A stretch of DNA of 64,000 bases. Origin: Roseomonas sp. OT10 (GTDB lineage Bacteria; Pseudomonadota; Alphaproteobacteria; Acetobacterales; Acetobacteraceae). Positions 4,862 through 55,276 of the stretch are shown here, piece after piece. The DNA lies in the NCBI RefSeq assembly GCF_020991085.1, contig NZ_CP087721.1:1-64000 (forward strand), in the 5' to 3' direction. The notes beneath the pieces are model-generated. The model was not told the DNA's origin and ran no database searches. It worked only from the letters and a program-made list of their open reading frames with translations. The position numbers and the translations under genes were made by a program. Each line of letters begins with the position of its first letter. The first letter of the stretch is position 1.

Positions 4862-4868
4862 GTGCCGA

Positions 4869-11463: not shown

Positions 11464-11471
11464 GACTTTCG

Positions 11472-11520
11472 CGGCCCACGGCCCACGGCCCACGGCCCAC
11501 GGCCCACGGTCTGCGGTCTG
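11472..11520. repeat. Tandem heptamer repeat
   Basis: Five perfect copies of CGGCCCA (11472-11506) are followed by two copies of the related heptamer CGGTCTG (11507-11520). It lies in the gap between the two DUF305 genes, directly after a stop codon. No function is evident. Confidence 0.8.
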
Positions 11521-11611
11521 CGGCTCTGGGCGGTTGTCGCTGACTGGCCGGACGCCATGCCTGGGCTAACCGGCCCGCGCACGCCGCGGTCGCACCTCCA
11601 AGGAAATAGAG

Positions 11612-40037: not shown

Positions 40038-40310
40038 CTACGCCGCCGGTGTGCTCTCGTTCTTGGTGGCAATGCTGGCCGCGATCATGCCTGCGATGAT
40101 GGCTTGCGGCGTGACATTGCGGCCCGTCTCCATCGAACGACGGGCGCTTTCCTCTGTGAGGGCGAGCAGGTGCGCGCGCGGAATACGGAGCGTCAGTTGC
40201 GCCATGTCACCGCCGGCCGGGCGGCCAGGGCGGCGCTTGACCGGGGTGCCAGTGGCCTTGGCGTCGGGGCTAGAGCTGTCTGACATACTGGGATCCTGGA
40301 GAACATTCAT
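40038..40310 (-). CDS. Ribbon-helix-helix-like plasmid protein
   Basis: The 90-residue protein has a flexible basic N-terminus (GTPVKRRPGRPAGGD) and then a possible RHH segment: MAQLTLRIPRAHLLALTEESARR. The strand MAQLTLRI could pair with a partner strand and bind DNA. The upstream inverted repeat at 40312-40343 is a likely operator. Start at ATG 40310; ATG 40286 is an alternative. It stands opposite the partition operon. Confidence 0.6.
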   Translation of the reverse strand: MNVLQDPSMSDSSSPDAKATGTPVKRRPGRPAGGDMAQLTLRIPRAHLLALTEESARRSMETGRNVTPQAIIAGMIAASIATKNESTPAA

Positions 40311-40311
40311 G

Positions 40312-40343
40312 GTGGTTGATAAATTAAAAAACTAAACAACCAC
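40312..40343. promoter_or_regulatory. Inverted repeat around an AT-rich core upstream of the RHH gene
   Basis: GTGGTTG (40312-40318) is the exact reverse complement of CAACCAC (40337-40343). The 18 bases between contain TAAATTAAAAAA (40320-40331), matching the repeat at 39972-39983. The dyad lies just upstream of the RHH start and is likely its operator. Confidence 0.55.
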
Positions 40344-40398
40344 GATGCCCTCGGATGGGGAAGGCCCTACTGAGATGTCCAGCGCCAAGTGTACAGAC

Positions 40399-40414
40399 GT
40401 AATACGCTTTACGC
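40399..40414. repeat. Partition-locus repeat, upstream copy
   Basis: GTAATACGC (40399-40407) runs into GCTTTACGC (40406-40414). Both nine-base words recur at the other end of the par operon: GTAATACGC at 41549-41557 and the reverse complement GCGTAAAGC at 41539-41547. This suggests centromere (parS-like) sites that flank parA and the RHH gene. Confidence 0.55.
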
Positions 40415-40490
40415 ATGGCGACGTACGTTGTAGTCAAGCCGTATTGACGCTTGCTAACTTGACGCACGGCGTCATGCGGTTGGAGCCACC

Positions 40491-41222
40491 ATGTCGATCA
40501 TCACTGTTGCCAGCTCAAAGGGTGGGCCAGGCAAGACAACGCTGTCCCAGATCATCGCGGGCACCCTCGCGGCGCGGGGGGTGAGCGTTGCCGTGCTCGA
40601 TGCCGACCCGACTGCCGGCCTGTCCCGATGGGCATCCAGGCTCTACGAGGGAGCCGCCTTTGTCTGCCACCACGAACCGGATGAGGCGAAGCTGGCCCAT
40701 TTGATCCATCGGATGGCCCAGGAGGCTGAGGTGGTAGTGGTGGACACAGCTGGCTTCGGCAACCGTGCCGCGACCGTTGCCATGACGGCGGCAGACGGGG
40801 TGCTGATCCCCATGGTGCCGGGGGAGGGCGACGTGACCGAGGCCGCCCGCACCGTTGAGCTGGTGGCCGGCGTTGCATCGGCAGCCCGCCGCGAGATACC
40901 TGCCCGTGTTGTTCTCAACCGCGTGCGGTCCTCGACGGCACTCTCCAAACACGCTGCGGCCGAGGCAGCGACCCTGCCAAAACTAGCCGCCTCCCTGTCT
41001 GACCTAGTGGCCTATGGGGAAATGGGCTTCTCAGGGCGGATGCCAGCTGGGAAGGCGGGAGCAGAGGCGGCAGCCCTGGTCGACGAGCTGCGGGAGCTAG
41101 GGTGGCTGCCGGGCAATCCCTCAGCGACTGGAAAGAAGAAGACGCCGAGCGCCAAGTTACATGGCGTAAAGGCGAAAGACGTAAAGACGAAAGCCGTAAA
41201 GACACAGGAGCCGCACCGTTGA
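40491..41222 (+). CDS. parA: ParA-family partition ATPase
   Basis: The 243-residue protein has the deviant Walker A of ParA (SSKGGPGKTTL), Walker A' (VLDADPTAGLSRWA) and Walker B (VVVVDTAGF). It lacks an N-terminal HTH, so it is the short type Ib-like class that pairs with a small RHH protein. Its C-terminus is a Lys-rich repeat (VKAKDVKTKAVKTQ) encoded by tandem 15-base repeats. The TTG of the next gene overlaps its stop. It should position the replicon at cell division. Confidence 0.9.
   Translation: MSIITVASSKGGPGKTTLSQIIAGTLAARGVSVAVLDADPTAGLSRWASRLYEGAAFVCHHEPDEAKLAHLIHRMAQEAEVVVVDTAGFGNRAATVAMTAADGVLIPMVPGEGDVTEAARTVELVAGVASAARREIPARVVLNRVRSSTALSKHAAAEAATLPKLAASLSDLVAYGEMGFSGRMPAGKAGAEAAALVDELRELGWLPGNPSATGKKKTPSAKLHGVKAKDVKTKAVKTQEPHR
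41164..41208 (+). repeat. 15-base tandem repeat inside the 3' end of parA
   Basis: Three near-copies (41164-41178, 41179-41193, 41194-41208) share CGTAAAG at the same place. The word GCGTAAAG also occurs in the flanking par repeats, so these copies may double as protein-binding sites. Confidence 0.6.
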
Positions 41223-41521
41223 AGGGCCTCAAGAGCACCAGGCCAGCGCCGCCCATTTCCCCTGACGAGATGCTACGGGCAGCCGGCGAGGCCGCACCGC
41301 AGCAGCCGCCGGCCATTGCCCAACGCCAGGGCGACGACAAGCCGGCTGTCCTGTCTGTCCGGATGACGGAAGGTACCTTGGAAGCCCTGGCCCGCTTCGC
41401 AATCGAAAAGGGCACGACGCAGCGGCGCGTGATCGCGGAAGCCCTGGCCAAGCATGGCGTGCAGGTATCCAGCCATGACTTAGAGGAACGGCCCCAGCCC
41501 AGGCGCCGTGGGCGGGGTTAG
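41219..41521 (+). CDS. Small RHH centromere-binding protein, partner of ParA
   Basis: The 100-residue protein has a likely ribbon-helix-helix domain (PAVLSVRMTEGTLEALARFAIEKGTTQRRVIAEALAKHGV). The TTG start overlaps the parA stop (TTGA), as expected for a ParB-like partner (ParG/StbB class) in short-ParA systems. It ends RPQPRRRGRG. It should bind the repeats flanking the operon. The TTG is unusual but fits coupling; a Met-led start upstream would lie within parA. Confidence 0.75.
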   Translation: MKGLKSTRPAPPISPDEMLRAAGEAAPQQPPAIAQRQGDDKPAVLSVRMTEGTLEALARFAIEKGTTQRRVIAEALAKHGVQVSSHDLEERPQPRRRGRG

Positions 41522-41534
41522 AACCGCAAAGCGG

Positions 41535-41561
41535 TCTTGCGTAAAGCAGTAATACGCAAGA
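41535..41561. repeat. Inverted repeat closing the partition operon
   Basis: TCTTGCGTA (41535-41543) is the perfect reverse complement of TACGCAAGA (41553-41561). It contains both words of the upstream par repeat (GCGTAAAGC and GTAATACGC). It could act as centromere, as terminator, or both. Confidence 0.6.
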
Positions 41562-41575
41562 CAGCTTGGCGCTTG

Positions 41576-41875
41576 TCAGTCATAGTCATTCCACATGCGG
41601 GAAATGCGCGCGCGCAGCCCAAGGCAGAGCATCCCAACAGCCCCACCACCCCAAATCATGCCAAGCGCCTCCCAGAGCGGTTGCCCCGCGTCGAGTGCGG
41701 AGCGGATGCCGAGGAGGCCCGCGAAGGCGCATACGATGCCCAGGAAGCCCATCACGGCCAGCAAAACCCTCGCTGGTCCCCGCACCAGGTAGAGCAGCGG
41801 GGCGAGCAGCAGCCAGGCAGCGGCGCGGAGTGCAGAGCCCACCCCGCGGATCGCCCGTGGGAAAGGCGCCGCCAC
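41576..41875 (-). CDS. Small membrane protein of the plasmid backbone
   Basis: The 99-residue protein has two or three hydrophobic segments (AAWLLLAPLLYLV, VLLAVMGFLGIVCAFAGLLGI and MIWGGGAVGMLCLGL). A GTG start shares one base with the stop of the upstream DUF6118 gene. No family is recognised; the gene order suggests a role in plasmid maintenance or transfer. Confidence 0.65.
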   Translation of the reverse strand: MAAPFPRAIRGVGSALRAAAWLLLAPLLYLVRGPARVLLAVMGFLGIVCAFAGLLGIRSALDAGQPLWEALGMIWGGGAVGMLCLGLRARISRMWNDYD

Positions 41876-42474
41876 TACGAGCGTGGCCCCGCCGGCGCCG
41901 CCGGCGGTGGAGCCTCATCCAGCCACAGCGGCACGGCGCAGGCCCGCCGGCCAGCGGCATCGGCCCAAACCGCCCGCCCCTCGCAGCGCGACAGGAGGCC
42001 TACAAGGTCATTGCGGCGGATGGCGTCGGCCCATGCCCGAGCCGAGGCCGAGCCGTCCGACAGCGCGGCGCGGATAATGCCCGTGGCCTCGCGCACGTCC
42101 GCCGCCTCCGTCGATCTTCCCCACAGATAGCCGCCGCCCAGCGCGCCCAGCAGCAGCACCGCCGCCCCGGCGCCCGACAGCACGGCCAAACGCCGGGACT
42201 GCGCGCCGGCCTGGCGCACGAAGTCGGCCCGGCATGCCTTCACGAGCTGGCGCGTCATCTCGGCCTGCGCTGAAGCGTCCAGCGGCTGCCGGCTAGACTC
42301 TGCGTGGTCCAGCACTTCGCCCATGGCGCCGAGGCTGGCCCCGAAGGCCTCGAGAACCGGGCCGAGCGGGTCGCCCTCCAGTTGCGCCTTCGAGGCCGCG
42401 AGGCGCAGATCGGCCCGCGCGCGGCCGATCGCTGCGCGCGGGTCCGAGGGCGCCGCCGCAGTCGTCGTGCTCAC
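41875..42474 (-). CDS. DUF6118 family plasmid protein
   Basis: The 199-residue protein has a helical N-terminal part (ARADLRLAASKAQLEGDPLGPVLEAFGASLGAMGEVLDHAE), one membrane segment (AVLSGAGAAVLLLGALGGGYLWG) and a soluble C-terminal part (RNDLVGLLSRCEGRAVWADAAGRRACAVPLWLD). This resembles DUF6118 proteins of alphaproteobacterial conjugative plasmids. GTG start overlaps the stop of the P-loop ATPase gene (GTGA). Function unknown. Confidence 0.7.
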   Translation of the reverse strand: MSTTTAAAPSDPRAAIGRARADLRLAASKAQLEGDPLGPVLEAFGASLGAMGEVLDHAESSRQPLDASAQAEMTRQLVKACRADFVRQAGAQSRRLAVLSGAGAAVLLLGALGGGYLWGRSTEAADVREATGIIRAALSDGSASARAWADAIRRNDLVGLLSRCEGRAVWADAAGRRACAVPLWLDEAPPPAAPAGPRS

Positions 42475-43339
42475 GGAATCCAGGACCGGATCGGCACTAG
42501 GGACGCGGCCATGTCCGCCATCCACTTGCGGACGCGAGAGCGGTCGAACGGGCCGAGAATGGCGCCGGGCTGGTCGGCCGGGGCCTGGCCGTCGCGCGCT
42601 TGGCCGAAGCGGAGCCGCTTGCCTTCGATCTCGGCTGCAACGCCCGCATCCAGCCGCGGCATCCAGATCGGCACCGCCCCGCGCTCCACGGCGGCCCGGA
42701 AAGCGCTGTGCCGTAGCACGCGGGCGAAGGCGTCCTCCCGCGGCATGGTGGGGTCGGCCAGGCCGGCGTTGAGGATCAGCGCCGTGGCCTTGGGCTGAAA
42801 GCCCTGCGCCTCGTAGCCGGCCAGCACGCTCAGATCATCGACGCGTGGGGATAGGGTGTAGATCGCGACTGGATGCACGCCGGCCTCTTCCAGGCTGCCG
42901 GCCAGGTCAGGCACGTCCTCCAGCAGCTTGCCCATGCTCAGATCGCCGCCGCCCATGTCGAGGAGGGCGCTCTGCTTCTCGGTCATGACGAAGCCGAGCA
43001 ATTCTTCTGCCCAGCGGGCGACACCGGTGGGATCGTTTGTATCGGGCTGCGCCACGTCGTTGACGAAGGTGGCCAGCGACCGGTTCTGCGGATCGAGCGC
43101 CGCGGCGATCGGGGCCGGCTGCCCGGAGCGGGCCTCCTCCAGGATGTAGCGCAGCAGCGTGGTCTTACCGCTGCGGCCCGGCCCCATGACGAACAGCGCC
43201 TTGGGACCGTCCCCGAGGTCTACGGCCGGCACAGTGGGCAGGGCTGCAGCGGCGCCGTCGCGAGGACGGGCCGCCGGTCCGACCGGGATCTCCCGCTCGC
43301 CCTCAATCGAGCGGGCCCGGCCGAATAGACGAGGGCTAG
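42471..43339 (-). pseudogene. P-loop ATPase gene, 3' part, separated from its start by an IS1182-family insertion
   Basis: This part has Walker A GPGRSGKTTLLRY and codes for a ParA/MinD-like or zeta-like nucleotide-binding fold (LDMGGGDLSMGKLLEDVPDLAGSLEEAGVHPVAIYTLS). The frame continues without stop to the insertion at 43340. Its first 17 residues lie at 44816-44868, beyond the element. Joining the two parts through one CTAG gives a continuous 305-residue frame. An internal GTG at 43232 might still give a shorter product that keeps the P-loop. It leads the unit with the DUF6118 and membrane genes. Confidence 0.85.
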
Positions 43340-44815
43340 GAGCCCGTCTCGGTAACCACTTTTCGGGCTGACATTGTGGAACGTTGAGCGGCGCCCGTGG
43401 TGCGCCAGCTTGCAGCGCGGGTCATCCTGTTGGTGCCTTGGCGAGCTTGGTGAGGTTGTGGGCGGTGCAGACCAACGCCCACTCGTGTTTTACCTTCTCG
43501 AGGCCGCGGAGGAGGAGTTGTCGGAACCCTCGTGCTTGCTTGATCTGTCCAAAGACGGGTTCGACGACCTGCTTGCGTAACCGGTAGCGGCTGCGCCGGC
43601 CGGCACGCCTGAGCCGCTGCCGCATGGCTGAAACCAGTGGGCCTCTGCGACGGTCCTCGCCGCCATCGGGGTGCTTGGCGCGACCGGTGGCGACGTAGCC
43701 GCGGATCTTGCGCCGGTCGAGGTCGGCCAGGTTGGCCTCCGAGCAATAGCCGCTGTCGGCGGAGACCTCGGTGGGCGTGACGCCGGTGTTGGCCGTGACC
43801 GCGTCGAGCAGCGGTCCCAAGGCGTCCTGGTCGGAGGCGTTGTTGGTCAGGTGATGCGCCACGATCACCTGTGCCGTCGCGTCCACCGCGGCCCCAGCGT
43901 TGTAGGCCTGCACGAAGCCGTCGCGACCCTTCATGATCCGGCTCTCCGGATCGGTGAAGTTGCGCTGTGCCGTGGGCCTGGGCTCGCAAGGCGGATGCTT
44001 CGGCTTGCGTCCGCGACGCCCACGCGGCGAGCCGTCGGCCTTCGTTCCCGGATCCGGCTGGGAGGCCGCAGCAGCAAGCGCCTCGGCCTCCAACTCCGCC
44101 TTCGCAGCACGGATCCGCTCCAGGCGGTGCCTCTTGTCGCGCATCCAGTCCGGCATCTCGTCGCCGCGCCGCTCGTCCCCGAGAGTGGCGTCTTCTTCGG
44201 CGTCGGCTCCCTCCGCCTGCGCCAGCCATCCCTCGACCTCGGCCGCCAGTTCGGCCTCGGCCGGGCTCATCCGGGCGTAGCTCATCGCCTTGTGCTTGGA
44301 GGCATTGGCCCGCAGCTTGGTGCCGTCCACCGCGACATGGCCAAGGCCGACCAGGCCGGCGCGTCGGCACAAGGTGAGCACCTGCACGAAGAGCGCAGCC
44401 AGTGCCGGCAGGTGACGCCGGCGGAACTCGCTGATGGTGCGGAAGTCCGGCCTGTTCAGCGCCGTTACTGCCTGGAAGTCGAGCCGTTCCTCGCAGGCGC
44501 GCGCGATCCGCCGCGACGAATAGACGCCTCGGCTGTAGGCGTAGAGCAGCAGCGCCACCATCATCGCCGGGTGGTACGGCGGATAGCCACGGGGCTCCGT
44601 GTAGGCCGAAAGAATGGCCGAGAGATCGAGTTCCTCCGCCACGATGTCGCGGACCAGATGCGCTGGATGCCCCTGGGGCACGAACTCCTGCACCGAGGGC
44701 GGCAGCAGCCAGACCTCGTCCACCTTCCAGGGCCGAAAGCTCTTCGTCATGCCGGCGAGCGAATCACCACCCAACCCACCTGTCGAGCCTATTCAGCCGT
44801 TACCGGGACACGCTC
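43340..44815 (-). mobile_element. IS1182-family insertion sequence, complete copy
   Basis: The 1476-base element is flanked by a CTAG duplication (43336-43339 and 44816-44819). Its ends are imperfect inverted repeats: GAGCCCGTCTCGGTAAC and GAGCGTGTCCCGGTAAC. It encodes one transposase. A second copy, in opposite orientation, begins at 63055. Removing it plus one CTAG restores the ATPase gene. Confidence 0.92.
43422..44750 (-). CDS. IS1182-family DDE transposase
   Basis: The 442-residue protein has the N-terminal IS1182/IS5-like domain (PWKVDEVWLLPPSVQEFVPQGHPAHLVRDI), an Ala/Glu-rich insert, and a DDE catalytic core: VAVDGTKLRANAS (first Asp), VSADSGYCSEANLAD (second Asp) and VVEPVFGQIKQARGFRQLLLRG (Glu). 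It is intact. The ATG at 44750 is chosen from the match with the second copy at 63120. Confidence 0.92.
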   Translation of the reverse strand: MTKSFRPWKVDEVWLLPPSVQEFVPQGHPAHLVRDIVAEELDLSAILSAYTEPRGYPPYHPAMMVALLLYAYSRGVYSSRRIARACEERLDFQAVTALNRPDFRTISEFRRRHLPALAALFVQVLTLCRRAGLVGLGHVAVDGTKLRANASKHKAMSYARMSPAEAELAAEVEGWLAQAEGADAEEDATLGDERRGDEMPDWMRDKRHRLERIRAAKAELEAEALAAAASQPDPGTKADGSPRGRRGRKPKHPPCEPRPTAQRNFTDPESRIMKGRDGFVQAYNAGAAVDATAQVIVAHHLTNNASDQDALGPLLDAVTANTGVTPTEVSADSGYCSEANLADLDRRKIRGYVATGRAKHPDGGEDRRRGPLVSAMRQRLRRAGRRSRYRLRKQVVEPVFGQIKQARGFRQLLLRGLEKVKHEWALVCTAHNLTKLAKAPTG

Positions 44816-44868
44816 CTAGGCGTGGGGGAGGGGTCGGGCTGGGGCGCTACGGACGGGGTGTTCTTCAT
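44816..44868 (-). pseudogene. P-loop ATPase gene, 5' part, cut off by IS1182
   Basis: ATG 44868 starts MKNTPSVAPQPDPSPTP and then the frame enters the element at the CTAG (44816-44819). The missing remainder is at 42471-43335, in frame when one CTAG is kept. It reads directly downstream of the gene at 44883-45377. Confidence 0.8.
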
Positions 44869-44882
44869 GGCTGGTACTCTGG

Positions 44883-45377
44883 TCATTTCAGGGACGCTGG
44901 CTTGAACCGCGGGGGCGGCTTCGGATCGAAGGCGCCTTCGGTCGGATCAAAGGCCGGGCGAACTGGTGGGGAAGGTGCCGCTGCGAGGGCAGGAGGCGCG
45001 ACGGGTGGAGGAGGCGTTGGGGCGGCTGTGGGAGCGGTTGCGGGCGTGCGGGAAGCTCCAGCCTTCGCCACGGCCATTTCCGCCTTGGACCGTCGCCGTC
45101 GCTGTCCCTTAGCGTTCAGGGCGCCTGTGACGCGATGGTAGGCCCGCCGCACCGCTTCCGTTTTTGGCGGCTCGCCGTTGGCATCACGGATGCCCAGGTC
45201 GGCCAGGGTGCGGGCAATGCTGTCCCAACTCGGCCGAACCGTGTTCATCCGCTCGGTGATCAGGGCATGGTGTTGGCGCATCCAGCCGAGCAGGGGAGAG
45301 CGGCCCGGAAGCTGGCCGAATGCCTCCTGCGCCATCTTGGTCGCGGGTGGGGTGGAAGAGTCCGCCAAGCCGATCAT
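44883..45377 (-). CDS. Plasmid-conserved hypothetical protein
   Basis: The 164-residue protein has a helical head with the motif GRSPLLGWMRQHHALITERMNTVRPSWDSIARTLADLGIRDANGEPPKTEAVRRAYHRVT, which suggests a HTH-like fold seen near conjugation genes of alphaproteobacteria. The C-terminal half is Pro/Ala-rich and disordered (PTPPPPVAPPALAAAPSPPVRP). The start is uncertain; a GTG at 45461 would add 28 residues but those lack typical composition. It precedes the disrupted ATPase gene. Confidence 0.6.
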   Translation of the reverse strand: MIGLADSSTPPATKMAQEAFGQLPGRSPLLGWMRQHHALITERMNTVRPSWDSIARTLADLGIRDANGEPPKTEAVRRAYHRVTGALNAKGQRRRRSKAEMAVAKAGASRTPATAPTAAPTPPPPVAPPALAAAPSPPVRPAFDPTEGAFDPKPPPRFKPASLK

Positions 45378-45461
45378 CCGTAGTTGCAACTGCTCGGAAT
45401 CCTGGCCCAAGGGAGCCCATAGGTGCAACCCCGCGTTCCCAATTAGATACGTATAAGGCAC

Positions 45462-45681
45462 CGGTTCGACACCACTAAGAGACGTTTAAGACACATAGAG
45501 GGGACGTCGAAGGCATGACGAAGGGACAAAGACAGACAGGAACAGACAGAGTTACCCGCTGAGGAGACATGAGAGGCACAAGGAAGAGATAAACAGGACA
45601 CAAGAGACGGGGGGAGGGGAGTAGAGAAGGTCACTACAGACCATTGCACCCTAGAAGGTGCTGGTCTCATCCCCGCTGAAG
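45462..45681. other. Candidate origin of transfer region upstream of the relaxase
   Basis: The 220 bases before the relaxase genes have no good gene. They are purine-rich on the plus strand, with short repeats (GACAAAGACAGACAGGAACAGACAG near 45518-45545). At the right end lies a hairpin: AGACCA (45638-45643), GCACC (45646-45650), loop CTAGAA, GGTGC (45657-45661), TGGTCT (45662-45667), with a two-base bulge. Repeats and stem-loops beside a relaxase gene are typical of oriT; the nic site is not identified. Confidence 0.4.
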
Positions 45682-46026
45682 ATGGTTAGGTGGCGCCCGA
45701 CCACCGATACCGAGGACGTTGCTTTGTCAGACGCCATCGCCGCCGAGCTGGCCCGCCTCCGGGACACCGTTGAAACGCTGACCCAGGGGCTGCGGATGAT
45801 GGTGGAGACGCAGGGCACCCACACCGAAATGCTGCAGGCGATCATGGAGGCGGCGACCGAAGAGGCCGGCGAGAGCCCGTTACCGGGGCTGCTGACGCAG
45901 ATCGTGCAGCGCTTGGACGAGCAGACCGAGGTCCTGCACCGCATCGAGGCCGCGGCCGGCGGCAGGTCGGTGGATGATAACGGGACCCCTGCCGGCCAGC
46001 GACCGGGGCCGGCGTCACAGCAGTAG
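45682..46026 (+). CDS. Coiled-coil plasmid protein preceding the relaxase
   Basis: The 114-residue product has a long helix with heptad-like spacing (LSDAIAAELARLRDTVETLTQGLRMMVETQGTHTEMLQAIMEAA), then a short acidic part and LLTQIVQRLDEQTEVLHRIEAAAGG. It ends 12 bases before the relaxase GTG. A DNA-bending or relaxase-accessory role is plausible by position. The start is uncertain: GTG 45658 would lie inside the hairpin, so ATG 45682 is preferred. Confidence 0.55.
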   Translation: MVRWRPTTDTEDVALSDAIAAELARLRDTVETLTQGLRMMVETQGTHTEMLQAIMEAATEEAGESPLPGLLTQIVQRLDEQTEVLHRIEAAAGGRSVDDNGTPAGQRPGPASQQ

Positions 46027-46038
46027 CAGGTCCGCCGG

Positions 46039-49000
46039 GTGCTGACCTTCCGCAAGGGCGCAGCCACCGTCATTCCCGGCGGCGCGCGGGCGATGGCCGA
46101 TCACCTGATGGAGGAGACGCTATCACCCGAGGCGGTGGCGATGGGCGACTACTACACCCGGAACCGGGCGGCCGAGCTGGGGGCCGGGAAGGGACCGGAC
46201 GGCGAGCCGGGACCGGAAGCGCCGCGCCGAGGCACCCGGCCGCAGCCGCGGCGGGACATGCATCCCGGCCTGGCATCGGCGCTGGGGATCGACCCGCACG
46301 GCATCCCGACCGTCGAACAGGTGAGCCAGATCCTCGCCGGCCGGCGCGCCGACGGGGACGAGCTGGTGACGAACGAGGCCGCGACCACGCGCAGCGTCAG
46401 CTACATCGACCTATGCTTCTCCGCCCCCAAGAGCGTGAGCCTGGCATGGGCCTTCGCTCCGACCGAGGCCGAGCGGGCGACCATCCTCCAGGCGCACCGA
46501 GACGCGGTCGACGCCTCGCTGCGCTACGTGTCCCGCGAAATCGGCCAGGTCCGCCGCGGCAAGGCCGGTATGGGCGGCACCGAGGCCGGGCACGTCGCCT
46601 GGATTGGCTTCGAGCACTTCACGGCCCGGGCGACCGCCGAGGTGAAGCGGCCCGACCCCAAAACCGGCGAGGTGACGACCGAGCTGCATACCCTACGGCC
46701 CGACCGTGACCCCTCCGGGGCCGGCGATCCGCAGCTCCACACCCATTGCGCGGTGCCCAACCTGGTTCTGACGGATGGCGGTCACCTGGGCGCCCTGGAC
46801 CTCAAGGCCGCGCACGGGCGCATCCACGAGTTCGGTGCCTTCTACCAGGCGCAGATCGCCGCGAACCTGCGGCGCGTCGGGGTGGCGGTGGAGCTGGAGG
46901 AGCGCACCGGGATGGCCAGGCTGCCGGCCATCCCGGAGGCGGTCTGCGAGGCGTTCAGCAAGCGCACCCGCGACGGCACCGAGGCGGCGCGGGCGGAGGC
47001 AGCCAAGCGCGGCCTCGATTGGGACGCTATGACACCGGACATGCAGGTGGACTTCCTCAAGGGCGGCACGAAGGCGGCCCGCAAGAACAAGGAGGACGAC
47101 CTCAGCGACTTCGCCGCTTGGCGCGGCCAGGCCGCGGCCGTCGGCTGGGAGCACCGCGGCGTCGTGGTGCCACGACGCCAAGGCGCCGGGGCGCCACGGG
47201 AGCAGAGCCGGGCGGCCCGCCTGGAAGCTGCCTATGAAGCGGCGTTGCCCTTCCTCGAAGCCGAGTTCTCCCGCGCCTCGGTCCTCAACGGGGCGGACCT
47301 GCGCGCCGCGGCGGCCCGCGCCCTCATCGCGGCCGGCATGACGCCGGGGGCGGACGGAGGCCGGGCGGACGTGGACGCCCTGACGCGGGCCATGCGCGAG
47401 CGCGGGGTGCGCCAGGATGGCCAGCTCACGGGGCTGGTGTGGGGGAGGGAGGGCGAGCGCGACGAGGTGCGGGTGACGACGGCGCTGCACGTCGCCCAGG
47501 AAGGCGAGGCCGTGGCCCTGGCCAAGGCCGCCGCGGCGGATCGCGGCCGTGCCCTGTCCCCCGCTGCCCTGGCTGCCGCGGTGGAGCGCAGCGGCTTGGA
47601 CTTTGGTGACGACCACGGGAAGGCGCAGCACGCGGCCATGGTGCGCCTCGGCACGGGCGGCGCCGTGGGCGTGGCGGTGGGCGTGGCCGGGGCGGGCAAG
47701 ACCGCCCTGCTGCGCCCGCTGGTGGATGCCTGGAAGGCGCAGGGCGACCACGTGGTGGGCGTGGCCATCGCCTGGCGCCAGGCCGAGCCACTGAAGGAGG
47801 CCGGGGTAGGGGATGTCGCGGCGCTCACGGGCTTCTTGCATGGGGTTCGTGCCGGTCGCCTCTCGATCGGGCCACGGACGGTGGTGGTGGTGGACGAGCT
47901 GGGGCAGGTGGGTGCCCGGCAGATGCTGGAGCTGCTGCGGCTGCGCGCGGAGCACGGGTTCCGCATCGTCGCGGTCGGCGACGACAAGCAATGCCAGGGC
48001 ATCGAGGCCGGGCCGGTGGTCAACCTGATGCGCCGGGCGCTGGGATCGGAGGCGGTGCCGGAAATCCTCACCACGCGCCGGCAGCGCACCGAGCGCGAGC
48101 GCGAGATCGCCGGGCTGTTCCGCGACGGCAAGGCGGCCGAGGCGCTGGCCATGAAGCGCGCGGACGGCACGGCCGAGGCGGTGCCGGGGGGCTACGACGA
48201 CGCCGTGCGACGGGTGGCCGAGCTGTGGCGGCAGCGGCGCGAGGCGAACGCCGGCGATGCGGGGTTCTCGATCAGCGTCACGGCGCCAACGAACGCCGAC
48301 GCCCGCGCCGTAGCCCTGGCGCTGCGCGAGGAACGCCGGGCGATGGGCGAGCTGGGGGCGGACGTGTTCAGCATTCGCGCGACCGACCAGGCCGGCGCCA
48401 CCTACAACCTGACCTTGGCACCGGGCGACCGGGTGCGGCTGTTCGACCGCCTCAACGCCCGGTTTTTCGACGGCGGCCGGGGCAACATCGGCAACAACGG
48501 CAGCGTGCTCGAAGTCCGCGATGTGAACGCGGACGGGATCGTGCTGCGGACGGCCGCGGGCCGCGACGGCGCGGTGTCGTGGGAAAGCCTGGCCGACAAG
48601 AAGAACGGCCGCACGCGGCTGGCGCCGGGCGACGTGCTGACCATCGACGCCGCCCAGGGCATCACCAGCAGCGAGCACATCAACGCCATGCCGGCGGGAT
48701 CGGCGGGGGTGCAGGGCTTTAAGGGCTACACGGCCGAGAGCCGGCATAAGGACTCCGCCTGGCTCATCACCTCGGACGGGGCCGAGCGGCGCGAGGTGAT
48801 GGTGCGCCGCGCCTTGGGGGATGCCCGGCCGGTGGGCGAGGGCGACGTGTGGGAGAACGTGGCGCGGAATCTGGCGCGACAGCCGGCGAAGGCGTCGGCG
48901 CTCGATTTCATGGACCGCGCCCGCGACGTCGGCCGCAGCGCCGCGCACGCCATGCAGGCCGGCTTCCGCCGGGCCGAGGCACGGGAGGCGGCCGGCGAAC

Positions 49001-50691
49001 CGCGGGCGACGCTGGGAGCGCAGCTCCGCGACCGGCGCGACGGCCGGGCGGTGAGCCAGGCGGTGGAGCGGCTGCGGCAGGCGTTCGATGCCCGCTGGCA
49101 GGCGGTGCGCGAGCTGGCCGACCGGCTGCGGCGGGCCGGCGGGACCGTTCTGCAGCATCGTGGGCAGGAGGACCGGCGGCGGGCCGAGGGTGAGGCGGGG
49201 GCGGTGCGCGACCGGGCGGCGGACAACCAAGCGCGCAGCCGGGCGGCGATCGAGCGGCACCGGGCGCCCCAGCCGAAGCAGGACGATCAGGCGCGGCCGG
49301 TGGACGCGGCGGCCTACTGGCAGCGCACGGCGGCGGGAAGGAACGGGTCGCTACGATTGAGCGTGCGGCGAGCAGCGCAGCGCAGGCGCGAGGAGGGCGC
49401 TGTGGCCGCGGCCACGGACCGCTTGGCGCTTGCTTTGGACGAGCGCGGCGCCGTCCTAGCGGGCATGGGGCAGGGCAGGGGTCCGAAGCCCGCCCAGGCC
49501 CAGGCGGTCCAGGGGCTGCGCCAGGGTCGCGACGGGGCACAGGCCCCCGCCAGCCTCGCGGCGCTGTCTCAGGCCATCCCCGCGCCGTCCCCGGTTATCC
49601 CCCCATCCTCCCCGCGCGCCGCCGCAGCTCCGGGACAGCGTGCGGCGCCGCGCTTCACCGAGGCTGATGCCGCGGCGGACTTCGCCGTGGCCCTGCACCG
49701 GGCCGGGCTGCGCGTCGCTGGACCGGTGGAGATGGATGGGAAGATGCACAGGGTTCCTGTGGAGGGGGACCGGAAGGGGCAGAAGTCAGGAACCTACGTC
49801 GGGCATCTGGACGGTTGGCCGGCGGGCTACATCCGCAACCATAAGACCGGCACCGAGATCCGCTGGAAGGCCGAGCGGCCGGTAGTACAGATGACGCTGG
49901 CCGAGCGGGCGGCGTCCGCGGCCGAGGCCGTGGCCAGATCCGTGGAGCGGGCGCGCGAGCGACACGACACCCAAGAGCGGGCGGCAAGGATGGCGCACCG
50001 CCTATGGGCCGCGGCAGCGCCGGCCAAAAATCACCCCTATCTCGCGGCCAAGGGCGTGAAGGCGCACGGGCTGCGGCAGGACAGGCGCGGCCGGCTGTTG
50101 GTGCCAGTGCAGGGAGTGGACGGGCGGCTTTGGGGGGTGCAGCGGGTGAACGTGGACGGGTCCAAGCTGTTCCTGAAAGGGGCCAGAACTGAGGGCGGGC
50201 ACGCGTTGATCGGTGGCCAGCCGGGGCCGGGGATGCCGCTGCTGGTGGCAGAGGGATACGCCACGGGGGCGACACTCCACGAGGCGACTGGGCTACCGGT
50301 GGCCGTGGCCTTCAACGCCGGGAACCTAGTGGCTGTGGCGAAGGCATACCGGGTGGCCGACCCAACGCGGCCCATCATCATCGCTGGGGACAACGACCAC
50401 CACTTGCCGAGGCGGGCGGTGCCGCTGCCGAACGTCGGGAAGGAGAAGGCCGAAGCTGCCGCGGCGGCAGTGGGCGGTATTGCCGCAGTGCCGTCATTTC
50501 CCGCCGGGGACCGAGGTAGTGATTGGAATGATTCGATGCGGAGGAATGGCCCTGAACACGTCAGTCACGCGATGCAGGCGGCCCTAAAGGCGTTGATTGC
50601 TTCGCAAACCCGAGAGGCAAAGGTGCACCGGCGTGACAAGCTGGTGCAGGATGCAACGCAGAATCGCGGCGTTGCTCCACGAGCGCGCTGA
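46039..50691 (+). CDS. MobF relaxase-helicase with C-terminal primase/Toprim-like domain
   Basis: The 1550-residue protein has, in order: the TrwC-type relaxase with the Tyr pair GDYYTRN (about 37-43) and the His triad region DPQLHTHCAVPN (about 230-241); a superfamily 1 helicase with Walker A GVAGAGKTALL (about 548), Walker B VVVVDELGQVG (about 614), and helicase motifs through residue 900; an Arg-rich linker; and a C-terminal domain (HPYLAAKGVKAHGL, LLVAEGYATGATLHEATGLPVAVAFNAGN, PIIIAGDNDHH) like the Toprim half of plasmid primases. It nicks oriT and unwinds the transferred strand. Start GTG 46039. The last 40 bases overlap the low-GC gene, so its normal C-terminus may be lost. Confidence 0.92.
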   Translation: MLTFRKGAATVIPGGARAMADHLMEETLSPEAVAMGDYYTRNRAAELGAGKGPDGEPGPEAPRRGTRPQPRRDMHPGLASALGIDPHGIPTVEQVSQILAGRRADGDELVTNEAATTRSVSYIDLCFSAPKSVSLAWAFAPTEAERATILQAHRDAVDASLRYVSREIGQVRRGKAGMGGTEAGHVAWIGFEHFTARATAEVKRPDPKTGEVTTELHTLRPDRDPSGAGDPQLHTHCAVPNLVLTDGGHLGALDLKAAHGRIHEFGAFYQAQIAANLRRVGVAVELEERTGMARLPAIPEAVCEAFSKRTRDGTEAARAEAAKRGLDWDAMTPDMQVDFLKGGTKAARKNKEDDLSDFAAWRGQAAAVGWEHRGVVVPRRQGAGAPREQSRAARLEAAYEAALPFLEAEFSRASVLNGADLRAAAARALIAAGMTPGADGGRADVDALTRAMRERGVRQDGQLTGLVWGREGERDEVRVTTALHVAQEGEAVALAKAAAADRGRALSPAALAAAVERSGLDFGDDHGKAQHAAMVRLGTGGAVGVAVGVAGAGKTALLRPLVDAWKAQGDHVVGVAIAWRQAEPLKEAGVGDVAALTGFLHGVRAGRLSIGPRTVVVVDELGQVGARQMLELLRLRAEHGFRIVAVGDDKQCQGIEAGPVVNLMRRALGSEAVPEILTTRRQRTEREREIAGLFRDGKAAEALAMKRADGTAEAVPGGYDDAVRRVAELWRQRREANAGDAGFSISVTAPTNADARAVALALREERRAMGELGADVFSIRATDQAGATYNLTLAPGDRVRLFDRLNARFFDGGRGNIGNNGSVLEVRDVNADGIVLRTAAGRDGAVSWESLADKKNGRTRLAPGDVLTIDAAQGITSSEHINAMPAGSAGVQGFKGYTAESRHKDSAWLITSDGAERREVMVRRALGDARPVGEGDVWENVARNLARQPAKASALDFMDRARDVGRSAAHAMQAGFRRAEAREAAGEPRATLGAQLRDRRDGRAVSQAVERLRQAFDARWQAVRELADRLRRAGGTVLQHRGQEDRRRAEGEAGAVRDRAADNQARSRAAIERHRAPQPKQDDQARPVDAAAYWQRTAAGRNGSLRLSVRRAAQRRREEGAVAAATDRLALALDERGAVLAGMGQGRGPKPAQAQAVQGLRQGRDGAQAPASLAALSQAIPAPSPVIPPSSPRAAAAPGQRAAPRFTEADAAADFAVALHRAGLRVAGPVEMDGKMHRVPVEGDRKGQKSGTYVGHLDGWPAGYIRNHKTGTEIRWKAERPVVQMTLAERAASAAEAVARSVERARERHDTQERAARMAHRLWAAAAPAKNHPYLAAKGVKAHGLRQDRRGRLLVPVQGVDGRLWGVQRVNVDGSKLFLKGARTEGGHALIGGQPGPGMPLLVAEGYATGATLHEATGLPVAVAFNAGNLVAVAKAYRVADPTRPIIIAGDNDHHLPRRAVPLPNVGKEKAEAAAAAVGGIAAVPSFPAGDRGSDWNDSMRRNGPEHVSHAMQAALKALIASQTREAKVHRRDKLVQDATQNRGVAPRAR

Positions 50692-52012
50692 TCAGCTGCA
50701 AGAAGTCAATTGGGGAGCGTTGTTGGTGGCTATAGTAGGGAAAGAGCTGGCTGAGTATGCGAGCGATATTCAAACGGGCATTGGTCCATATGAAGTAAGT
50801 GATTTCGACGAACTTAGACTGCTTGGGATGGCGGGTTCGCTAGCTGTCCAACTCAGGGGGTTGCCAGAGATAGAATATGCAGTTTTGGTTAGAGTTTCAG
50901 ACAGTTTGTTCAATATCCCGTCGCTTGCACTAAAGCCAGTCCTGCGCATTCTCAGCGAGGCAGGCATGGTGCGGCTGTATGAGAGTGGACGTAATATAAC
51001 CAAGATCGACCCACAGGTTCCTTATTTCGAGAACGTTTACGATACGATCGGCGCATACTCGGCTTCCTCTAGTCTAACTGAAACTGAACAAGCTATGGTC
51101 GCTATCATGGCGGAGTTACAAAAGAAGCCCGAAAACAAAGATAGACTTCTCAGTAAACTCGGTATGGAGAGTTCTCTGCTCGATCGCTGCCTGATGATTG
51201 GAAATCAGAGTGGGTTAATTTCGAACCATCGTGTTCGAGGGCAAACTGTACTTACAAGTCCTGTCTACTTTGCTGATAACAATCAGGGGTTAGCTGACCT
51301 GATAGCAAAAGTGGGAAGTTCCGAGTTCGCCGATGTGATGGAAGTCATACGCCTCCATCAAGGTTGGCCGCTTAGCATGATCATATCTCAACAGAAAGTT
51401 GCTGGACGTCCTCTTACACCCGTTCAAATTGATCTTATTCAAATGCTGGCCTCCGAAAACATGCTGAAGCCACCCACAATTGAGATTGGCAAGCAAAGCG
51501 AGGTTTTTTTGTTTACTCCGCGGCCTGGGGCTGCGCGCCTTTCGCCAGGCAAAAGGGACATATATGAGCGGGCAATGGCTTTGTTGGCAGCAGTCAGAAA
51601 AGGCCAGCTTCTGCCCTTCGCTCACCCCATTAGAAAACCTGCTGTTTTGTTGCAAGCTTTTTTGAGGGACGGTTACTTGGGAGCTAATACGGAGGCCAGA
51701 GCACAATACGGCAAGGTAGCAGGAACTTTCAACATCGGCTACTTTAAGGAGACAAAGCCGGGGTGGCACCAGTTTTGGTTGCGAAAGACTGAGGAGAATA
51801 TTGAGGCAGTTCAAGCCGCAATCGACTTGGCTCAAGGAGAAGAAACTAAAGTCGATATGCGAATGGATCAAGAAGCTAGAGCTCTTTTGCAGATGGATGA
51901 CAAGTATGTCAGTTCCGTTCTGGGCAGCAAAGGAATGAAGGAAAGGAAGAAAATCGCCCCTAGCGCTGCTGCGAAAGAACAGTGGGATCAACTCACTCTG
52001 AGGCTTGTGTGA
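50651..52012 (+). CDS. Unknown protein with predicted winged-helix repeats, first gene of a low-GC module
   Basis: The 453-residue protein matches no family I know. It has at least four helix-wing segments that look like winged-helix domains: LALKPVLRILSEAGMVRL, NKDRLLSKLGMESSLLDRCL, LTPVQIDLIQMLASENML and AVLLQAFLRDGYLGANTEA. It is rich in Lys, Ile and Ser and clearly lower in GC than the relaxase gene it overlaps by about 40 bases. The start at ATG 50651 is tentative; no strong site is seen. Its TGA overlaps the next ATG (TGATG), so the two genes act together. A DNA- or RNA-binding sensor role is inference. Confidence 0.75.
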   Translation: MQRRIAALLHERADQLQEVNWGALLVAIVGKELAEYASDIQTGIGPYEVSDFDELRLLGMAGSLAVQLRGLPEIEYAVLVRVSDSLFNIPSLALKPVLRILSEAGMVRLYESGRNITKIDPQVPYFENVYDTIGAYSASSSLTETEQAMVAIMAELQKKPENKDRLLSKLGMESSLLDRCLMIGNQSGLISNHRVRGQTVLTSPVYFADNNQGLADLIAKVGSSEFADVMEVIRLHQGWPLSMIISQQKVAGRPLTPVQIDLIQMLASENMLKPPTIEIGKQSEVFLFTPRPGAARLSPGKRDIYERAMALLAAVRKGQLLPFAHPIRKPAVLLQAFLRDGYLGANTEARAQYGKVAGTFNIGYFKETKPGWHQFWLRKTEENIEAVQAAIDLAQGEETKVDMRMDQEARALLQMDDKYVSSVLGSKGMKERKKIAPSAAAKEQWDQLTLRLV

Positions 52013-53121
52013 TGGCCAGAACCGACAAGGATGTAGGCGCTAAAGCACAAGCTCTCCGCTTCTGTGTGTCAGCAGGCTTTATACCGTATTTGGAGGTTGA
52101 TGTTCTAAGTGGAGTAGAACTATCCGCTTCTCCAAAGCGGCTAACCGATATCGATGTTCTTGGAGTGGGATTGCGATCTGATGGAACCGTAGGTCGAACC
52201 CTGTTCGATTGCAAAAGTGTGGGTGGGCCTGCCTTCGCAAGAGCTCTTTGGTTATCCGGACTATTAACGTTTACTGGTGGTGACGAAGGTTTTATGTTGA
52301 TGGGCAAGCCAGTTGAGCGTGCTCATCGTTTGGCCGCGCGAAAGCTTAAGGTTCGGATATTTGGAGCTGATGCTTTCGACGGTTATGCATCTGCAGCAAG
52401 CGCCGAGTATAAAATTCTGAAGTCCTATGCTGGTGATATAGAAAACTGGCATCGAGTTAGGGAGACCGCTTTAAAGAATCCCGCAATTTTGGAGATTTTT
52501 GATGGAATCAACTATGAGGTTCCGTTGTGTGCTGATGCCCCAAAAGCATTCAGGCGACTAATTGCCAGCTGCCGCAAAAATAAGGGCGAGTTAAATCCCG
52601 CAAAGCCGTTGCATATGGCTACTTTTGCCGAAATTGTGCTTGCTGTTTCTATCCTTGTGGCGGTTATGATTGGTGATTTGCGTAACATCATAGAGCTTGC
52701 GGACAATGAAAAGGAATTTTCGACTGCTTTGAGATACTATGTTTGGGGTGGTCACGAGAACATTGAACTACTAAAAAGAATGCACGACCTTATCGCTGCT
52801 AATGGTTCCCCTTTGGAACAGGAATCTTCTCTGATAGCTTGGCCTCTCTTCGTGCAGCTAGTGCGCGGCATGTTGGAATCTCCCACCCAAGTTAGGAATG
52901 CATGCTTTCCTTTGCGGGATATTAGTTTGCGTTATCTTGCGGACACGAACGAAGCTGCCGATCTGCGGGTAGGAAGGCTATTCCTCGCGCCTCGTGCTCG
53001 GCAGTTTGCCAAACGTGTGAGTTCCTACGTGGCGGCAGTTTTGAAGTTGCCAAATGAGTTTGCTGAACGTCTGGGCCAAGATATCGATGATCTTGTTATG
53101 AAAGCGGAAGCAAAGTTATAG
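52012..53121 (+). CDS. PD-(D/E)XK nuclease-like protein, second gene of a low-GC module
   Basis: The 369-residue protein begins with a short helix and then a nuclease-like pattern: GAKAQALRF (helix, with E28 in YLEVD), LTDIDVLGVG (D46/D48) and TLFDCKSVGG (D66-C-K68). D48, D66 and K68 fit the PD-(D/E)XK fold. The later part has a hydrophobic helix (AEIVLAVSILVAVMIGDL, about 215-233) and a helical C-terminal region (FVQLVRGMLESPTQVRNACF). Low GC like its partner. It ends just before a strong hairpin. It may cut DNA; no family name can be given. Confidence 0.75.
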   Translation: MARTDKDVGAKAQALRFCVSAGFIPYLEVDVLSGVELSASPKRLTDIDVLGVGLRSDGTVGRTLFDCKSVGGPAFARALWLSGLLTFTGGDEGFMLMGKPVERAHRLAARKLKVRIFGADAFDGYASAASAEYKILKSYAGDIENWHRVRETALKNPAILEIFDGINYEVPLCADAPKAFRRLIASCRKNKGELNPAKPLHMATFAEIVLAVSILVAVMIGDLRNIIELADNEKEFSTALRYYVWGGHENIELLKRMHDLIAANGSPLEQESSLIAWPLFVQLVRGMLESPTQVRNACFPLRDISLRYLADTNEAADLRVGRLFLAPRARQFAKRVSSYVAAVLKLPNEFAERLGQDIDDLVMKAEAKL

Positions 53122-53185
53122 TTTCTTAAAAAGGGTGGCTGGGAGGAGCTTTCAAAAGTTACTCTTGGTATTGGAAGCAGATAGG

Positions 53186-53205
53186 ACCGGCACGCGAGTG
53201 CCGGT
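53186..53205. terminator. Terminator closing the low-GC module
   Basis: ACCGGCAC (53186-53193) pairs perfectly with GTGCCGGT (53198-53205) around GCGA, followed by TT. It lies between convergent genes (the nuclease-like gene and the small gene at 53206-53430), so it may stop transcription from both sides. Confidence 0.75.
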
Positions 53206-53430
53206 TTAGGCGCGCATCCCACGTTGACGCCCAGGTGTGACAATCTGAGCTGGCGCCGCGGCGGCCGACTTCGCAGTTCGGCCGGCAGCGGCCACACCCT
53301 GCCAGTATTGTGTCGCGGCCGAGGCTTGCCCCTGCGCCGGCTTCGACGAGCTGGCGCCGGCCGCGGCGGACGCTTCCGCTAGGCGTGGTGCCGGGTCGTG
53401 CGCCTGGTTGGAGCTCCTGCTGTCGGACAT
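53206..53430 (-). CDS. Small Ala/Ser-rich plasmid protein
   Basis: The 74-residue product is Ala/Ser/Gln-rich (LAEASAAAGASSSKPAQGQASAATQYWQGVAAAG) and ends in GRQRGMRA. AGGAG stands before the ATG at 53430. It lies 10 bases after the virD4 stop, so it is the last gene of that operon. No family is recognised; its stop touches the terminator at 53186-53205. Confidence 0.6.
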   Translation of the reverse strand: MSDSRSSNQAHDPAPRLAEASAAAGASSSKPAQGQASAATQYWQGVAAAGRTAKSAAAAPAQIVTPGRQRGMRA

Positions 53431-53440
53431 GCCGTTTCTC

Positions 53441-55276
53441 CTATTCCGCTGCCTGTTTCTGGAAGCGGCTGGCCTCGATAACTACCCGCAGCTCGGGTCG
53501 ACGGAAGTAGATCGCCCGCCCGCAGCGCAGCGGCTTGGAACCGCGGGCAAAGACGAATGCCTCGTCGCCGCGCACGTCCTGCATCAGTTCATCCGGCCGA
53601 ATTAAGGCACGGGCTATCTCGTGCCGGTTCATGCTGGTGCCCTTGGAGTGCGAGCCGGCCTCCAGGGGCTTGCCCTGGCTGCCGTCGTTGCGGCCTTCGC
53701 TCTCGGCCATGACCGAGTGCCCACCGGCTGCGTCGGAAACCGACTTCGCTGTGTCGGTGTTCTGCACGGCGGCATACATGCGCCAGCTCACGCTATCGAA
53801 CCAGGCGTTGCGACCCTGGCGGCCCCACTGCTCCACGAGCTGGTCCTCGGCTTGGTAAAGCAGTTGCAGGGTGATGCCGTACTTGCGGCCGGCGTCGCGG
53901 GCGACCTCCAGAATTTTCATCGGCCCCAGGCGGCGGACCTCATCGAGCATAAACAGCACGCGGCCCTGCACAGCGCCGTCCGCCTCGTAGAGCGCGTTCA
54001 GCAGCGCTCCAACGAGCACGCGGCCGACCGCGGGGGTGTCGCGCAGCACCTTGAGCGGGATTTGCAGGAACACTGTCAGCTTGCCCTCCGTCAGCTCGGC
54101 GGTCCCGCAGGAGGGTTCCGCGCCCTCGGCGCCGCCCGAGACAAGATCGGCGTAGGCCGCGACGGATAGCCAAGCGGTGTCGCCCGTGGCGTTGCCGTAG
54201 ATGCCCGAGAACGTCTCGGAAACGATCTTCTTGATGGTGCCGGCAATGTCGCGCGCCATGGGGCTGTTCGACCCGGTGTGGATGCCTTCCAGCACGTCGC
54301 GCATCTGGTCCTCGGGGGTGACGATGCCGGCGCGCAGGGTCCGGAGGGTCTTGGCCGCCGCGGGCATGGTGTCGTCCCACAGCATATGGGCGAGGAGGCA
54401 GGCGACGAGCTGCTTGCCCCAGTTACGGAAGAACTTGTCGGCGTCGGAGCTGCCACCCTCGGCCTCCCCGAAGATCCAGCCCACCACGGCGTGAACGTTG
54501 GTTTCCGCGAGGGGGTGGGTCACGTCGATCCAGTCGAGGACGTTGATCCCACCCGGCATGCCGGGTTCCAGGGAGACGACCTTGTGCCCCATGCCCTCGC
54601 GGGCCGCGGCGAGCATTGGCCCCAGCTCGCGCGAGGGATCGAGCACGACGGCGGCGCCGGTCCAGTGGACGAGGGTGGAGGCGGCCGAGACGGTCTTGAA
54701 GCCGCCGGAGCCGGCGAACACCAGGCTATGCGTCGGGCCGATCTTGCAAGGGTCCACCAGCAGCGCGGCCTTACCGCCCTGGCCCCAGGTCTCGCGCTTC
54801 TCGGGGTCAAAGGCGAGCTTGGCCACCTTGTCCTGATCCACCCGGTAAGCCTCGCCCACGACCACCCCGCCGAAGTCGGGATGCGGGCCAGGGAAGCGGT
54901 CGCGGGCCTCCTTCATGCTCATCCACTCGGCGTGCCCGTGGTTGTCGGTGCTGCCCCGGACGACCTTGCCGGGGCGGGTGACGCGCCCGCCGCGTAGCTG
55001 CACAAGGCGGTAGATCACCAAGCCGAGGAACACGGTGGGCGCCCCGGCGCCGAACATCAGCCATCGGCCGACAATGGGGTGGGGCGGCGCGAACAGGGCG
55101 TAGCTCCACCACTGGCCGATCCAGGCGGTCCCCTGGAACGGGAAGTAGCGGACCAGGCCGGTGCCCCACAGGAACACGGCCGAGGCCGCGGCGGTCCAGA
55201 GCAGGGCGAGGATGGCCAGCAGCAGGCCCCAGGCCACCAAGCGGCCGGGGGAGGGGAGGCGGCGACGTTCGCTCAT
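53441..55276 (-). CDS. virD4: Type IV coupling protein VirD4/TraG
   Basis: The 611-residue protein has two N-terminal membrane segments (LVAWGLLLAILALLWTAAASAVFLW, WLMFGAGAPTVFLGLVIYRLV), a Walker A VFAGSGGFKTVS (about 190), Walker B VLFMLDEVRRLGPM (about 460) and other TraG motifs (GGHSVMAESEG). It couples the relaxase complex to the secretion channel. The A motif lacks the usual GSGKT form but Gly and Lys are present. A gap of 110 bases separates it from virB11. Confidence 0.93.
   Translation of the reverse strand: MSERRRLPSPGRLVAWGLLLAILALLWTAAASAVFLWGTGLVRYFPFQGTAWIGQWWSYALFAPPHPIVGRWLMFGAGAPTVFLGLVIYRLVQLRGGRVTRPGKVVRGSTDNHGHAEWMSMKEARDRFPGPHPDFGGVVVGEAYRVDQDKVAKLAFDPEKRETWGQGGKAALLVDPCKIGPTHSLVFAGSGGFKTVSAASTLVHWTGAAVVLDPSRELGPMLAAAREGMGHKVVSLEPGMPGGINVLDWIDVTHPLAETNVHAVVGWIFGEAEGGSSDADKFFRNWGKQLVACLLAHMLWDDTMPAAAKTLRTLRAGIVTPEDQMRDVLEGIHTGSNSPMARDIAGTIKKIVSETFSGIYGNATGDTAWLSVAAYADLVSGGAEGAEPSCGTAELTEGKLTVFLQIPLKVLRDTPAVGRVLVGALLNALYEADGAVQGRVLFMLDEVRRLGPMKILEVARDAGRKYGITLQLLYQAEDQLVEQWGRQGRNAWFDSVSWRMYAAVQNTDTAKSVSDAAGGHSVMAESEGRNDGSQGKPLEAGSHSKGTSMNRHEIARALIRPDELMQDVRGDEAFVFARGSKPLRCGRAIYFRRPELRVVIEASRFQKQAAE

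Follow-up and report, generated by a model that had tools for sequence, protein, structure and literature searches.

Winged helices and nucleases occur together in several described restriction systems. In PMC10853773, FokI is presented as a triple winged helix with a restriction endonuclease (REase) domain, and DndG/SspB-type proteins as multi-winged-helix partners in DNA phosphorothioate restriction operons. Winged-helix fusion enzymes that depend on N6-methyladenine (6mA) are type IV enzymes and sense modified DNA, according to PMC11037411. Here we analyze two overlapping genes, A and B (50726-53121), in a stretch of 64,000 nucleotides from Roseomonas sp. OT10 (contig NZ_CP087721.1, positions 1 to 64,000; hereafter the window), which encode a predicted chain of winged helices and a PD-(D/E)XK nuclease-like protein, respectively.

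We propose, with a probability of roughly 0.6, that A and B together form a mobile, restriction-like system of two subunits directed against foreign nucleic acid, be it phage or competing plasmid. The observations behind this proposal are the adjacency and conservation of the genes, their predicted folds, the invariant residues of catalytic type, the shared inheritance of A and B, their spread across phyla and the defense families among their neighbors. The parts are of known kinds, and the two-protein combination without a recurrent methylase or ATPase is undescribed in the literature consulted.

Predicted folds and conserved residues

The initial annotation had recognized in B the spacing of D48, D66 and K68 that is typical of PD-(D/E)XK nucleases. 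The AlphaFold model of B (predicted local distance difference test (pLDDT) 93.1, predicted template modeling (pTM) score 0.92) contains the core that this spacing suggested, with the alpha-beta-beta-beta-alpha-beta topology of the superfamily (helix 8-20, strands 24-32, 43-54 and 60-68, helix 74-88, strand 92-97). Both the second-strand Asp and the third-strand (D/E)xK expected of PD-(D/E)XK proteins are conserved in B: E28, D46, D48, D66, C67, K68, R77 and W80 are invariant in 36/36 aligned sequences, and D48 and D66-x-K68 are also constant in a 6-row alignment that includes actinobacteria. E28 had been assigned to an upstream helix; its invariance holds, but it lies in strand 24-32, and its position is an Asp in two actinobacterial members outside the 36-sequence alignment. 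On the basis of the model, B is nuclease-like, with a predicted cleavage activity of the PD-(D/E)XK type.

In the helical half of B, R181, H201 and G246-G247 are conserved. A HEPN-type motif was considered for this half and dropped, as HEPN motifs require a closer R/H spacing than the 20 residues between R181 and H201. Foldseek gave no match to the B model at an expectation value (E) of 0.001 or better; on a second look, the top chains include Can2, Card1, EndoMS, EcoT38I, AspBHI and BamHI. The PD-(D/E)XK domains of the CARF-type CRISPR ancillary nucleases (Can2, Card1 and Cdn1) and of VC1899 are the closest known to the B core. In contrast to these proteins, to which its identity is 6-14%, B has its core at the N-terminus and a helical remainder, and with no CARF domain evident in the model, membership of the CARF nucleases was dropped as well.

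For A, the initial annotation had noted several winged-helix-like segments, and the AlphaFold model (pLDDT 81.1) resolves these into four winged helices, with the three helices followed by a beta-hairpin wing that characterize such proteins. The fourth unit has a net charge of +8 (family mean +6.6). Like FokI and the winged-helix fusion type IV enzymes, the pair brings together winged helices and a nuclease; in contrast to FokI-type enzymes, reader and nuclease are separate proteins and there are four winged-helix units. No winged-helix restriction enzyme was found in sequence searches of the Protein Data Bank (PDB) with A and B. As a multi-winged-helix partner A is also similar to the DndG/SspB-type proteins, a likeness drawn from their published description.

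No match at E 0.001 or better was returned by Foldseek for the A model. The weaker matches (E 5e-3 to 0.1) are to the winged helices of SelB and to RPC62 of RNA polymerase III (Pol III) and TFIIIC, which resemble A as chains of winged helices and show no significant sequence match to it. These matches would fit an RNA-directed system, in which A would read RNA in the manner of SelB's winged helices and thereby prompt B to cleave RNA or DNA. We consider this very improbable: the matches are weak, a second look yielded matches of a single winged helix each, mostly in DNA-binding regulators, and PD-(D/E)XK enzymes mostly cut DNA.

Family searches agree with the earlier statement that the first protein belongs to no recognizable family, and neither protein has a match above cut-off that would mark it as a housekeeping protein. 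In Pfam, the best match of A is DUF4246_N (E 0.085, below cut-off) and B has none; when the alignment members were searched, the best single-member values were E 0.01 (34 A sequences) and 0.025 (36 B sequences). NCBIfam gave no match for A or B, no family of PADLOC-DB 2.0.0 (2023) matched either window protein up to E 10, and PHROGs gave only E 0.28 and 0.038. Among solved structures in the PDB, the best sequence hits reached E 0.072 with A and 0.39 with B.

Inheritance as a unit and distribution

The initial annotation proposed a profile search for co-occurrence, and A and B are indeed found together elsewhere, with one exception seen. A pattern-based, non-exhaustive scan of 84,980 species genomes with an A alignment gave 38 loci; together with five plasmid and two phage-like loci, B lies directly after A in 45/45 examined. 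Three of these (L001-L003) were opened from B matches and the rest from A. When only loci chosen by A alone are counted (L008-L047, which are 40 loci, and L004, L005, L069, L084 and L088; n = 45), B follows A at 44, and the adjacency is therefore more than chance. All 28 B matches, in 27 host genomes, fall at pair loci, and the pairwise distances of A and B correlate (Mantel r 0.863, n = 34, 0/5000 permutations). The ratio of nonsynonymous to synonymous divergence (dN/dS) is 0.04-0.09, at high synonymous divergence, in the 5 of 16 gene comparisons that were measurable; nine comparisons are saturated and two are identical. The loci are not all independent, as L010 is near-identical to the window and L017/L018 and L008/L009 are close. 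Left out of the pair counts is a weak 54-position match in a genome of the class (L048, E 6.7e-4), and several matches were left unopened (plasmid matches H3, H5, H7 and H10, which are second records of B. glumae and Priestia, and clade II matches H15-H17 and H20).

Two cases of long identity were seen among the loci. In Jeotgalibacillus proteolyticus, two copies of the pair about 83 kb apart on one contig (L034 and L035) lie within 19,254 identical bases, the result of either a recent large-scale duplication or the assembly. Positions 2248-5785 of a Comamonadaceae record (L044) and 8015-11552 of Castellaniella caeni (L047) are identical over 3,538 bases including the pair, either because of a recent transfer or because one of the records is contaminated.

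The pair is rare and patchy, occurring in 1/60 relatives, 2/289 genomes of the class and 2/398 of the phylum, counts that each include the genome of the window and of which the second of the class is a weak partial match (E 6.7e-4). At the same time its spread is broad: in the tree of A, genome rows come from nine phyla, to which plasmids add Actinomycetota. Well-supported sister rows cross phyla, such as Pseudomonas putida with the cyanobacterium Nodosilinea; another cross-phylum sister pair joins a betaproteobacterial record with an armatimonad bin, and bins can be contaminated. Among 50,697 phage records there was no A, and a scan of viral contigs found none with B; with A alignments the same scan gave two and then three contigs, two of them common to both.

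Genomic context and alternative functions

The coordinates of the pair in the window are collected in Table 1. The overlap of the two reading frames is present as annotated, and the low G+C content claimed for the pair is confirmed at 0.481, against 0.687 for the window, 0.734 for the relaxase-like open reading frame (ORF) and 0.687 for the VirD4-like ORF. Only 11/617 sliding windows of the length of the pair have a G+C content below 0.52, and the minimum falls on the pair. Gene A probably starts 25 codons downstream of the annotated ATG 50651: the closest homolog (L011) starts at the equivalent of GTG 50726, a GGGAG lies 5' of this GTG at 50713-50717, and AlphaFold confidence is low over residues 11-30 (counted from 50651). 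Of the strong hairpin described at the end of the module, the hairpin itself stands (z-score -2.27, with 6/200 shuffles equally good), but no terminator-like site was found there on the + strand.

Table 1. Features of the A/B pair in the window. Winged-helix borders are our reading of the model's secondary structure; residues of A are counted from 50651.
Feature	Position	Strand	Remarks
Gene A	50726..52012	+	About 428 amino acids (aa), four winged-helix units; 453 aa if ATG 50651 is the start
Winged-helix unit 1, residues 50-121	50798..51013	+	Model secondary structure
Winged-helix unit 2, residues 142-205	51074..51265	+	Conserved R196-G197 in wing
Winged-helix unit 3, residues 223-290	51317..51520	+	Conserved P274-P275, F286-x-F288-x-P290
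Winged-helix unit 4, residues 299-378	51545..51784	+	Conserved R302, E306, V315-R316-x-G318-Q319
TGATG, shared stop of A and start of B	52010..52014	+	Read in sequence
Gene B	52012..53121	+	369 aa, PD-(D/E)XK nuclease-like protein; ORF and AlphaFold model
B PD-(D/E)XK core, residues 8-120	52033..52371	+	AlphaFold model
E28 codon	52093..52095	+	Invariant, 36/36 aligned sequences
D46-I-D48, T-D-x-D motif	52147..52155	+	Both Asp invariant
D66-C67-K68, (D/E)xK motif	52207..52215	+	Invariant
B all-helical C-terminal half, residues 121-368	52372..53115	+	Model; fold matches barely cover this half
Hairpin 3' of B, 10-bp stem	53184..53193 with 53198..53207	+	Not a classical terminator

The window is part of a contig (C3) of 73,438 bases in a genome of 5.69 Mb, the other contigs having 5,329,498 and 286,493 bases, and a plasmid is therefore the most likely location of the pair. 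The annotated position between a relaxase gene (46039-50691, +) and a VirD4 gene (53441-55276, -) is correct; we take both labels, like those of further ORFs on this contig that are presumably VirB11, VirB10, VirB9 and VirB8, from recognition by eye, with no family search. Farther upstream, an insertion (43336-44820) holds a transposase ORF (43422-44774, -) that is 37% identical to a transposase of L001 annotated as IS1182 family. This insertion is missing from L010, a contig titled Roseomonas acroporae NAR14, which is 99.9% identical to the window over 44816-53404 and 40171-43340; there, the matching flanks share 5 bases, consistent with a target duplication of 5 bases.

The placement between two transfer-type genes on a 73-kb contig, and the integrases, recombinases and relaxases near other copies, might suggest that the pair serves the maintenance of its plasmid or element, through DNA processing, repair or transfer, and that defense genes nearby are mere co-passengers of mobile islands. 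Such a role appears improbable to us, as the flanking transfer genes are not common to L011-L014, which share only the pair with the window (L012 has one additional match of 342 bases, to another part of the window), and as contigs of megabase size carry some of the copies (2.1 Mb for L014; a record titled chromosome for L027). The neighbors point the same way. Simple ORF calls at 41 loci, taking up to four nearest genes each, gave 157 proteins (one locus was without any, and two edge-cut proteins were dropped), and no neighbor family was found in more than 4/41 loci (blastp, E 1e-6). The pair hence appears complete with two genes, in contrast to DndG/SspB systems, which have further ATPase or helicase subunits.

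The annotation had also suggested looking for defense genes among the neighbors, and many PADLOC families were matched there. At E 1e-10, the first 83 neighbors match 80 families, among the matches listed LmuB, PD-Lambda-1, ShosA, SoFic, PDC-S02 and PDC-S11, and the other 74 match 220, with MTase_I, REase_I, AbiLi, AriA, mad2, mad3, HEC-01A and PD-Lambda-2 among the matches listed. Farther genes (148 of 307 sampled) match 53 families, including pAgo, ThsB, DrmD, NsnC and REase_I among those listed. The control consists of 143 of 271 genes from 19 regions of 19 genomes that also carry the pair, at a distance to it of only 40-60 kb in some cases; it matches 41 families, with only HerA, SIR2, Aga_SIR2 and mad8 among the matches listed. 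An enrichment of defense families near the pair is thus supported, in counts of families rather than proteins. At L031 (7592-11827), an HsdS-like and an HsdM-like gene flank the pair on one strand, within what appears to be a type I restriction operon. Copies elsewhere adjoin integrase-like genes, or genes annotated as ThiF and multiubiquitin, and in one case an IS5 transposase and two hypothetical genes separate the pair from annotated DUF262 and DUF3696 genes about 3.4 kb away.

No protecting methylase is among the recurrent neighbors, with the limit that unrelated methylases at different loci would escape a test of recurrence; in the genome of the window, N6_Mtase (PF02384), the only methylase family searched, has one match on C2 and none on C3. 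This absence, the overlap of two genes with DNA-binding-type folds first and a nuclease second, and the carriage on plasmids and integrative elements would also suit a toxin-antitoxin-like or abortive-infection pair. In such a pair B would harm the cell, and A would silence B, might repress the operon and would release B upon infection or plasmid loss; the pair would also stabilize the plasmid. We hold this to be unlikely. Classical toxin-antitoxin pairs have small antitoxins, whereas both proteins here are large, at about 430 aa (A) and 370 aa (B), and one plasmid carries A without a detectable B. Moreover, where a gene is split (L014 and L039, with sequencing error possible) it is A, with B open; an antitoxin would be expected to stay intact if B were toxic alone, and B as a free toxin is mildly disfavored.

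The lone and split copies of A also weigh against the restriction-like system that we favor, together with several further points. The lone copy is a divergent A on a plasmid of Streptomycetaceae NBC_01309 (L088, 7899-9173), with no B found within a 17-kb stretch; the split copies are two loci. Three of the four winged-helix units of A are near neutral, which is why A may bind protein or RNA. In the window, the pair is flanked most closely by transfer genes and not by defense genes. The neighbor comparison counts families, not proteins, with the first 25 families listed for each set, and some PADLOC matches are housekeeping proteins, as PbeA (three proteins) includes a UvrB-like protein at L027. 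Nevertheless, the combination of sensor and nuclease that the initial annotation compared to defense systems is supported: a housekeeping match, a lack of co-occurrence or a B fold without the core would have spoken against it, and none of these was observed. A defensive role itself is predicted.

Proposed mechanism and a second clade

In the restriction-like system, the winged helices of A, chiefly the basic fourth unit, would bind and recognize the target, most likely DNA. B is predicted to contact A, on which it would dock probably via its helical half, and the putative nuclease would cut its predicted DNA substrate at a metal-dependent PD-(D/E)XK site composed of D48, D66 and K68, with E28 and D46. 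Since no recurrent methylase accompanies the pair, self DNA is probably spared by the recognition of A or by a silent B. A could sense modified DNA, like the winged-helix type IV enzymes, or damaged or otherwise non-host DNA; alternatively, B could be silent until A meets its target. The lack of a recurrent methylase is compatible with type IV (modification-dependent) restriction, and indicates no more than that.

In 398 genomes, the B profile picked up three further matches, weak and partial (E 1.7e-8 to 8.4e-6). In every case an A relative precedes the matched gene, and together the two genes form a unit of a remote second clade (clade II). With clade II profiles built from three sequences each, profile comparison relates A to A' (E 2.7e-9, probability 96%, 344 columns) and B to B' (E 2.9e-8, probability 95%, 230 columns). 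Both genes are present at 8/8 clade II loci tested, including the three from which the profiles were built. Like the window pair, the clade II pairs (L072-L082) have the same gene order, with an overlap of 1-11 bases in the first three seen; they are unnamed in the annotations seen. The B' motif TDxDxW ... VDxKNK has the D-x-D and D-x-K frame in common with B, but largely not the rest. Sequence searches of solved structures with A' and B' had best values of E 0.41 and 0.43, and there was no B' in the phage records and no A' in the viral contigs. One clade II pair has annotated N-6 and Eco57I-type methylases on the opposite strand, at a distance of about 1 kb.

DNA similarity to a clade II query occurs in 22/5,426 Escherichia coli genomes, over 38% of the query, across the gene junction and at 65-66% identity; a B. 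glumae pair has no similarity in E. coli genomes. Two of these copies (L086 and L087), taken as apparent clade II members from DNA similarity and annotation, are adjacent hypothetical genes on islands with integrases and relaxases, and on one of the islands the pair is beside tRNA-Pro and an annotated ABC-three component system. In E. coli XJ5.2 (L086, 2685-7707), an annotated His-Xaa-Ser (hxsDBCA) cluster and a TIGR04141-family gene adjoin the apparent pair on the opposite strand.

No description of the pair was found in the literature by accession or theme, a search beyond whose reach the identities of the DefensePredictor systems lie. In that source (PMC13092281), 13 of its 31 further E. 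coli systems have PD-(D/E)XK domains, and these may include a relative of clade II. More tentatively, and at somewhat less than even odds, the two clades might be deep branches, at least two in number, of an ancient and still unnamed superfamily of immune nucleases made of two proteins, which extends across ten bacterial phyla and includes E. coli. In this superfamily, the cue by which an A protein of four winged helices recognizes invading DNA would be something other than a pattern of cognate methylation, and A would license a separate PD-(D/E)XK protein B. The pair would amount to a restriction enzyme split in two that does without methylase, ATPase and second messenger.

A widely spread, tightly linked two-gene unit to which the family libraries searched gave no match is a concrete and easily testable candidate for an immune system. 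Only two genes are needed, and the apparent relatives in E. coli allow a direct test in laboratory strains. If the pair restricts foreign DNA without a methylase, the discrimination of self from non-self would become a new question, posed in a simple system.

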